Positions 61,931 through 64,000 of a stretch of DNA of 64,000 bases are shown in pieces. Below the pieces are notes generated by a model, which saw only the letters and a program-made list of their open reading frames with translations, made no database searches and was not told where the DNA came from. Position 1 is the first letter of the stretch; every line of letters begins with the position of its first letter. The translations under genes were made by a program, and so were the position numbers. Source of the DNA: an uncultured Nitrosomonas sp. (GTDB lineage Bacteria > Pseudomonadota > Gammaproteobacteria > Burkholderiales > Nitrosomonadaceae). The stretch lies in NCBI RefSeq assembly GCF_902826915.1, contig NZ_CADEGP010000002.1:1-64000 (forward strand), read 5' to 3'.

Positions 61931-63319
61931 ATGCTTATTGTTTTCTCCCAAGACCAAGAAGAAACTGATTTATCAAGTGAATACAAAAATCTCTTTAATA
62001 TTTCATATTTTAGTGATTTTTCAGTTTGGGAGAAGGAAAGAATTATCCCATCAGCTTTTATCATCCAAGGAAAGGATAAGCATTACATTTCTACCATCCT
62101 TGGAAAAGTGCGTAAGGATAGTGAATTTTTTGCATCTTTGTGTTTTATTACCGATTCAGCTTTTCCGTACGACGACTTTATGCTCGACGGGCAGCTACCA
62201 CAACCCATAGATTTACGAGAAGAAATAAATCAGTTTGATAATTTGCTGAAATCCCTGAAGAGTAATGAAACCTATATCACTCATCAAGGACGACTGATTA
62301 AATATTTCTGGTTGCGGCCGGACTTTGTACTTCAACCATATCATGATTGGCAACACGCGCGTTTCTATCGCTATCCATTACTCGAAGCGCTAAGCCTAGA
62401 TAAATCGGATAGTTTTGAGTGGCTGCGAAACCTTGCAAATAGTAAAATAATCGATCCTATCCTGTTGATTGATCGTCAACGTGAATGCACCGATTGTCGA
62501 TCTTCTCATTTAAGTTTTGTTGATGTTTGTCCAAATTGTCTTTCTATAGACATAGGGATGCAAGCATCGCTACATTGCTTTACTTGCGGATGTGTTGATG
62601 TGCAGGAGAGATTTCTGCATAGCGGCACATTAATCTGCCCCAAATGCCATACCCAGCTACGTCATATCGGCAGCGATTATGATAGGCCAATCGAAAACTA
62701 TCGGTGCCATTCATGTAGCCAGTCATTCGTTGAAGGCGAGGTGCAGGTTCGCTGCGCTATGTGCGAGAAGGAGATGGAATCCAGTGAACTTATTCAAAAT
62801 GAGATACGTAATTGGCGCTTAAGCGACAAAGGAAGAACAATCGCTTTTCGTGGAGAAGTTTTTGATTTATCTTCAGGCTTTGATCAGCTCAACTTCATTT
62901 CCCGCGAGTTGTTTATCCACGATCTTGATTGGATGATGATAACGTCACGACGTTATCCAAACGTTAATTTCAGTTTATTTGGAATTTATTTTCCCAACTT
63001 ACCAGAATTAGTCGAGCTTTTTAATCATGCACGATTACTGCAAATGCTTGAATCCTTTGCGCAGCAATTGAGAAGCTTATTACGCACCCCTGACCTTTCT
63101 ACCCGAACAGCGGAAAACATGCTTTGGCTGCTCCTGCCGAATACTGACGAACAAGGATTATTCGGTTTCCATAAGCGCATAGAAGGCAGCATGAAATTAT
63201 TATTGGAACAAAGCGAACATAAACTGGATTTTCGCTTTATTAGTATTTCCTCGCAAAAACTATCCAGCAAGGAAAACGCTGAGCTGCTGCTTGCCCGCCT
63301 ATATGGTGAGTTACTGTAA
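61931..63319 (+). CDS. TackOD1-like zinc-region protein with a degenerate GGDEF-like domain
   Basis: 462 residues from the ATG at 61931 (GGAAG upstream; a TTG at 61901 would add ten residues). Residues 1-175 are an unassigned N-terminal domain. Residues about 180-285 are a Cys-rich region with six CxxC pairs (186/189, 200/203, 216/219, 236/239, 259/262, 275/278) and the segment HIGSDYDRP, which matches the TackOD1 output domain. Residues 320-462 have the length and spacing of a GGDEF domain, with TPDLSTRTAENMLWLLLPNTD where active ones have an ATDL..R-GGDEF-x-VLLP-x-T pattern; the active-site motif is TAENM (393-397). Catalysis is unlikely. A GT2 gene follows after 3 nt. Confidence 0.7.
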   Translation: MLIVFSQDQEETDLSSEYKNLFNISYFSDFSVWEKERIIPSAFIIQGKDKHYISTILGKVRKDSEFFASLCFITDSAFPYDDFMLDGQLPQPIDLREEINQFDNLLKSLKSNETYITHQGRLIKYFWLRPDFVLQPYHDWQHARFYRYPLLEALSLDKSDSFEWLRNLANSKIIDPILLIDRQRECTDCRSSHLSFVDVCPNCLSIDIGMQASLHCFTCGCVDVQERFLHSGTLICPKCHTQLRHIGSDYDRPIENYRCHSCSQSFVEGEVQVRCAMCEKEMESSELIQNEIRNWRLSDKGRTIAFRGEVFDLSSGFDQLNFISRELFIHDLDWMMITSRRYPNVNFSLFGIYFPNLPELVELFNHARLLQMLESFAQQLRSLLRTPDLSTRTAENMLWLLLPNTDEQGLFGFHKRIEGSMKLLLEQSEHKLDFRFISISSQKLSSKENAELLLARLYGELL

Positions 63320-63322
63320 TTT

Positions 63323-64000
63323 ATGGAAAGTCTGAATCAGGCTTGGTATTTGTTTCAGGCTACCTTGTCACGCTATCAGGATTTTCAGTATGTATTCATG
63401 CTGATTCCATTTGTGTTGTTTTTTGAGCTGCCGCTTTATTTCATCAATTGGATGAGCGTATTTCGCTATCTGATTAAGAATGCTATAGAGGCACCTTTGA
63501 CGCTTCATTACTTTCCCCGCGTGACCTGCGCGATCACCTGCTATGCCGAAGGGAAAGCTGTTCAAAACACGGTGATATCACTATTGGAACAGATCTATCC
63601 CGGACACATAGAAATAATTGCGATGGTGGACGGAGTGAAAAGAAATCAAGTCACTTATCATGCTCTGGTGGAACTCGTTCCTTTAGTTTCGCAATATCCT
63701 AAACGCTCGCTGGTGATTATTCCGAAGTTTCAGCGCGGAGGCAGAGTTTCTTCACTCAATGCAGGGCTAAGCCGAGCTCAGGGGGAGATTTTTCTTGCAC
63801 TGGATGGTGATACATCATTTGATAATCAGATGATTCGCTATGCCGCAGCGCATTTTAGAAACCCTGATATGGTGGCCGTCACAGGGCCGATGCGAGCACG
63901 GAACGCTAGAAAAACAATCATGACGCGATTGCAGAATTTAGAGTACATGTTGACGATGCAGGTGGGAAAATTAGGCTTTGCGAAGCTGGGTGTTATCAAT
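63323..64000 (+). CDS. GT2 glycosyltransferase, processive type (3' end outside window)
   Basis: 226 codons are visible, open to the window edge. An N-terminal membrane helix (about 26-48, FMLIPFVLFFELPLYFINWM) precedes a GT2 catalytic domain: ITCYAEGKAVQNTVISLLEQ, then GGRVSSLNAGLSRAQGEIFLALDGD, in which LDGDT stands where the usual DAD/DXD metal motif lies, and AVTGPMRARN. The layout resembles cellulose, hyaluronan or poly-GlcNAc synthases. It starts 3 nt after the TackOD1-like gene and is surely in the same operon. The substrate cannot be told without the rest. Confidence 0.85.
   Translation, partial: MESLNQAWYLFQATLSRYQDFQYVFMLIPFVLFFELPLYFINWMSVFRYLIKNAIEAPLTLHYFPRVTCAITCYAEGKAVQNTVISLLEQIYPGHIEIIAMVDGVKRNQVTYHALVELVPLVSQYPKRSLVIIPKFQRGGRVSSLNAGLSRAQGEIFLALDGDTSFDNQMIRYAAAHFRNPDMVAVTGPMRARNARKTIMTRLQNLEYMLTMQVGKLGFAKLGVIN

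Follow-up and report, generated by a model that had tools for sequence, protein, structure and literature searches.

The window, a stretch of 64,000 nucleotides from an uncultured Nitrosomonas sp., ends inside an operon of four genes, A to D. The contig runs to 80365 and the operon extends to about 67849, past the window end at 64000. The reading frames, in the order A-B-C-D, overlap or nearly abut, and the next gene lies on the opposite strand. A search of Rfam for RNA regulators upstream of the operon gave no match. Residues of protein A are numbered here from its ATG (462 aa); in a second, 472-aa numbering R385 becomes R395 and D388 becomes D398. The features are as follows.

61931..63319, + strand: gene A, encoding a protein with receiver-like (REC-like), TackOD1 and degenerate GGDEF domains, 462 aa from the ATG
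61931..62254, + strand: N-terminal (beta-alpha)5 receiver-like domain of A, residues 1-108, from the secondary structure of the AlphaFold2 (AF2) model
62270..62821, + strand: TackOD1 zinc domain of A, residues 114-297, with six CxxC pairs
62663..62689, + strand: HIGSDYDRP signature of A, residues 245-253, inside TackOD1
62870..63316, + strand: degenerate GGDEF domain of A, residues 314-462, from sequence profile and fold comparison
63083..63094, + strand: I-site RTPD, R385xxD388, from conservation in 52 relatives
63110..63124, + strand: AENML in place of the GGDEF motif, register from the profile alignment; catalytic motif lost
63176..63178, + strand: R416, by spacing the third I-site residue, 31 after R385, as in SadC
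63323..64000, + strand: gene B, membrane GT2, cut by the end of the window; in full 63323-64648, 441 aa
about 64621-66816, outside the window: gene C, TolC-like outer membrane channel (OEP, 51 bits) with a C-terminal TIM barrel, 731 aa
about 66800-67849, outside the window: gene D, HlyD adaptor (HlyD_D23, 47 bits), 349 aa

The mechanical open reading frame of gene A opens at TTG 61901. We prefer the ATG at 61931 because relatives begin there; a start at the TTG is possible but less likely. AF2 modelled protein A with a mean pLDDT of 89. At its N-terminus, solved REC-GGDEF chains align with the model starting at residue 1. We base the receiver assignment on this fold order, since the profile-profile match to REC is weak (E 0.011, against 0.15 for an unrelated control). 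The phospho-acceptor Asp of this domain shows no conservation among relatives.

The original prediction described a TackOD1-like protein with six CxxC pairs and the HIGSDYDRP sequence. All of these are found in the protein encoded at 61931-63319, which matches TackOD1 (PF18551) with 226 bits against a Pfam gathering score of 32. The pairs are CTDC, CPNC, CFTC, CPKC, CHSC and CAMC. Across 53 relatives all twelve of their cysteines are invariant, as is His215, and HIGSDYDRP is nearly or fully so. Galperin et al. 2018, the one paper naming TackOD1 in the literature searched, give its cysteine pattern as five CxxC plus HxxC and call the function of the domain obscure (PMC5847659). The pattern HIGxDYD[RK]P occurs in at least 591 stretches of a wider collection of genome contigs, at least 588 of which are confirmed relatives of A. 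Twelve invariant cysteines in six CxxC pairs might also suit a metal or redox sensor, with zinc or oxidation state setting the activity of the synthase. We regard this as very unlikely, since full invariance is typical of the cysteines of structural zinc ribbons, and genes for metal transport or metal resistance are not a recurring feature of the neighbourhoods listed.

The C-terminus of A had been noted for its GGDEF-like spacing, and both sequence profiles and the AF2 model confirmed a GGDEF fold. Pfam GGDEF scores 19 bits on the window protein by itself, below the cut-off, and is matched at E<0.01 by 51 of 53 relatives; a profile of the A family matched diguanylate cyclases in the PDB at E 4.8e-9. 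The model aligned with solved GGDEF domains over ~142 residues (Z 13.5-16.1, rmsd about 2.8), and its matches include the c-di-GMP-bound structures 3ign and 5euh. The motif at the GGDEF position is indeed degenerate, as predicted; its register had been read as TAENM, and the true pentapeptide is AENML, one residue further on. None of 52 non-redundant relatives carries a GGDEF motif, and the metal-binding Asp (position 363) is absent, replaced in most of the 52 by Arg or Tyr. Annotated records of Aeromonas and Plesiomonas name A a 'diguanylate cyclase', which would make it an active enzyme supplying the synthase with c-di-GMP. These substitutions contradict that annotation, and we consider an active cyclase extremely improbable.

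The I-site, on the other hand, is retained. Among the 52 relatives the Arg is present in 48, the Asp in 51 and the RxxD pair in 47. Ranked by conservation within the C-terminal domain of these divergent relatives, D398 comes first and R395 third (472-aa numbering). The position of R416 holds Arg in 41 of the 52 and Arg or Lys in 46, and the R385/D388/R416 triad is complete in 41. Keeping the I-site while losing catalysis is the pattern that a c-di-GMP receptor like PelD or BcsE would be expected to show. The regulator had been predicted to respond to a nucleotide or to a metal. We favour the nucleotide over the metal because RxxD is kept, the catalytic site is lost and the cysteines are all invariant, as for structural zinc.

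In Nevskiales and in the Alphaproteobacteria at loci L160, L161 and L164-L166 the operon persists with an I-site that is no longer intact, so a signal common to all lineages cannot be c-di-GMP. Both I-site arginines were lost together in four relatives from Solimonas/Nevskia (L099, L106, L109 and L130), a joint loss that we count in favour of the I-site reading. The contigs of L099, L106 and L130 are long enough to show the four-gene operon, which is complete despite the loss.

The ATG of gene B, at 63323, lies 3 nt past the TAA of A, exactly the gap originally reported. Protein B has the full set of processive GT2 residues (D103, D161xD163, ED255 and QRLRW at 294-298), and the catalytic positions of this signature (DxD, ED, QRxRW) are invariant over 29 relatives. 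Among solved structures, hyaluronan synthases (HAS) are the closest to B. The best NCBIfam equivalog is PgaC/IcaA, at 143.5 bits below the cut-off of 422. Pfam detects no PilZ domain in B, and A may therefore be the sole c-di-GMP receptor.

Extending the sequence past 64000, as had been suggested, revealed C and D downstream. The C-terminal domain of C has no Pfam match, GH18 included, and a sequence search of the PDB with it found nothing; matches came from fold comparison alone. It is modelled as a TIM barrel (pLDDT 95) whose fold neighbours are Cwp19, GH18 chitinases and E. coli PgaB (Z 15.6-17.7; PgaB 15.6). A DxE at the end of strand 4 (D578xE580) is invariant in 46 of 46 sequences, and an MxY at strand 6 is also invariant. 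We take both to sit where GH18 enzymes keep catalytic residues. A homologue of C is absent near A in six loci of the class in which A, B and D are present, so C, the hydrolase/channel gene, need not be local.

The HlyD adaptors (D, L002:6801-7850, and its relatives) have a conserved cytoplasmic leader ahead of the transmembrane helix. In operons of the window type the leader reads V-x-Y-A-P-x-K-R and then R-W-Y; it is possible that it contacts the GT2 or A. Near the end of the contig, on the minus strand (L002:19630-19998), there is also a frame with a PEP-CTERM-like tail (VPEPG, a hydrophobic stretch and RYRK).

A processive GT2 together with a TolC-like channel/hydrolase and an HlyD adaptor fits the synthesis and export of an exopolysaccharide, in line with the link first proposed. 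HlyD and TolC are best known from the export of small molecules and proteins, and the product could instead be a short secreted or lipid-linked glycan. We judge this quite improbable given the QRxRW processivity motif, the HAS/PgaC-type similarity of B and the hydrolase domain; moreover, exit through GT2-HlyD-TolC has been proposed for cyanobacterial cellulose (PMC12430437).

We then asked how widely TackOD1 and the GT2 pair. B lies directly downstream of A in 78 of 80 loci, mostly 0-12 nt away, these being the best 80 of at least 588 relatives. They span Nitrosomonas, Pseudomonas, Stutzerimonas, Thioalkalivibrio, Marinobacter, Desulfobacterota and a Planctomycete. The two non-adjacent loci are L152, at a contig end, and L123, from genome G221 (L050/L123), in which A has no GT2 beside it. 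Since the 80 loci are those nearest to the query, an even selection of 369 genomes of the window's class provides a fairer test. Full-length TackOD1 is present in 17 of these genomes, from 13 families. The GT2 subfamily of B (E<=1e-80) is found in 15, all within the 17 TackOD1 genomes and at the same loci. The co-occurrence has a hypergeometric P of about 7e-25 (reciprocally, 15/15 and 15/17); the GT2 profile was built with some genomes of the sample, which aids sensitivity and cannot create the absence of B from genomes that lack A. The exceptions are G247, with B adjacent but frame-broken, and G221, with no GT2. Thus the pairing is not confined to one genome, as it might have been; it is found again in many families and in several phyla.

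Within the genus the operon is patchy, with an A homologue in 14 of 37 Nitrosomonas genomes. Annotated plasmid records hold A-GT2-HlyD in Plesiomonas, Rhodobacteraceae, Phyllobacterium, Aminobacter, Roseibium and Palleronia, and A-GT2-TolC-HlyD in Aeromonas. One bearer, an Aeromonas caviae plasmid of 29 kb (NZ_AP024139.1 / NZ_AP024951.1), is typed as mobilizable and has A annotated as a diguanylate cyclase.

A second operon type has the order C-D-A-B (L054, L056, L058, L059, L063 and L065, the last opening inside D at a contig end). Its GT2 is divergent, ~23% identical to B of the window, and the Nitrosomonas genome G372 (L065) bears this type. At L064, the second TackOD1 locus of genome G293, the gene is eroded, with the zinc domain partly deleted and no GT2 beside it.

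The neighbourhoods vary in the signals that they suggest. Some operons have genuine c-di-GMP enzymes as neighbours, which speaks for that signal: GGDEF-EAL proteins come immediately after D in L060 and L062, and lie upstream in L055. The A proteins of Roseibium and Palleronia have a canonical Response_reg domain ahead of TackOD1 and no RxxD, and Hpt and histidine-kinase-type genes lie near. A-GT2-HlyD persists in Phyllobacterium and Aminobacter, where A has neither Response_reg nor RxxD. The loci of these four genera favour an explanation in which TackOD1 regulates the GT2 and the signal here is other than c-di-GMP, the receiver-like and GGDEF-like domains being protein-interaction or phospho-relay modules. 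We think this unlikely for the window lineage, whose receiver-like domain lacks a conserved phospho-acceptor and in which 47 of 52 relatives have RxxD.

In the alphaproteobacterial loci L161 and L164-L166 the core of the operon is likewise kept and RxxD is lost. This loss and the receiver swap, with the operon core kept, indicate that TackOD1 and the GT2 are the constant pair and that the inputs vary, which suggests that communication with the synthase runs through TackOD1. More tentatively, and at a little less than an even chance, TackOD1 could be a dedicated coupling module for this GT2 clade. Varied inputs, c-di-GMP through the dead GGDEF or phosphorylation through a receiver domain, would then gate a single, widespread exopolysaccharide pathway whose conduit is HlyD/TolC-like.

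Downstream of D, Pseudomonas (L117 and L147) and Rhodobacteraceae (M382) carry UDP-sugar epimerase genes. Together with the GH18-like barrel and the PgaC-like synthase, they point to a polymer that would contain HexNAc. A GH16 gene follows D in L053, a locus without C, so the polymers may differ between lineages.

We infer that A controls the GT2. We propose, as the probable explanation, that the operon is a widespread synthase-dependent exopolysaccharide system activated when the dead GGDEF domain binds c-di-GMP, TackOD1 passing the signal on to the synthase. B, as a processive GT2, would polymerise an activated sugar and pass the polymer through its own membrane channel. The HlyD adaptor D and the TolC-like channel C would take it across the envelope, and the GH18-like barrel on C may trim or process it. 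A would act as the cytoplasmic receptor, its dead GGDEF binding c-di-GMP at the RxxD I-site. The signal would reach B by contact with A, through the zinc-stabilised TackOD1 domain, and synthesis would be switched on post-translationally, rather than inhibited. Precedents for such a role of A are PelD for Pel and BcsE, which supports cellulose synthesis.

Comparison with the closest known systems indicates how this operon differs. In Pel (P. aeruginosa, B. cereus), a degenerate GGDEF with RxxD, in PelD, controls a polysaccharide synthase, and a hydrolase and a UDP-sugar epimerase also occur in the system. Mutation of R363, D366 or R395 in B. cereus PelD abolishes measurable c-di-GMP binding, which is required for biofilm formation (PMC7112168). 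However, PelD has a GAF domain before its GGDEF where A has TackOD1, together with a receiver-like domain. The synthase is PelF rather than a membrane GT2, and export here would be by HlyD and a TolC-like channel. The PelD_GGDEF model scores 20.9 bits on protein A, below its gathering score of 27.

BcsE of enterobacterial cellulose secretion is a degenerate receiver-GGDEF tandem that senses c-di-GMP (PMC7439463). A shares its RxxD and would likewise be an accessory regulator of a membrane GT2. By the fold order of its model A may also share the tandem architecture, with TackOD1 standing between the receiver-like and GGDEF domains. Pfam gave no BcsE/GIL match in A at E<=1, and the operon contains no bcs genes. 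PgaABCD, which makes PNAG, shares a PgaC-like GT2, and the TIM barrel of C resembles the PgaB C-terminus (Z 15.6). Here a TolC-like channel takes the place of PgaA, an HlyD adaptor is present, and a separate TackOD1 receptor stands in for PgaCD.

The cyanobacterial cellulose export system XcsA-XcsB(HlyD)-TolC has a similar proposed GT2-HlyD-TolC conduit (PMC12430437). XcsA carries its own PilZ domain, however, its genes are scattered in T. vulcanus, and TackOD1 is not described there. Archaeal REC-TackOD1 response regulators share TackOD1 with a receiver domain (PMC5847659), but belong to thaumarchaeal type IV pilus loci, with no GGDEF or GT2 partner described (PMC5847659). We also considered Peb of P. 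putida (PP_1788-1795), from the right genus, and rejected it for its sialic-acid-type enzymes, two GT2s and lack of HlyD. A survey of exopolysaccharides covering Pap, Pea, Psl and Pel of Pseudomonas makes no mention of HlyD or GGDEF.

The operon appears to work like known c-di-GMP-gated synthase systems, yet it falls outside PelD, BcsE and PgaC by the models, domains and neighbouring genes compared. No description of it was found in the open-access literature searched, and the system is apparently undescribed.

If our proposal is correct, a further c-di-GMP-controlled exopolysaccharide system would join Pel, cellulose, alginate and PNAG. Its carriers comprise at least several hundred genomes and an Aeromonas plasmid, in Nitrosomonas, Pseudomonas, Stutzerimonas, Marinobacter, Thioalkalivibrio, Desulfobacterota and Alphaproteobacteria, and also in Planctomycetes. 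TackOD1 would gain its first testable function, and automatic 'diguanylate cyclase' annotations of the receptor A would be corrected. Aggregation and biofilm formation of nitrifiers matter for wastewater treatment, and the operon offers a direct target for knock-out.
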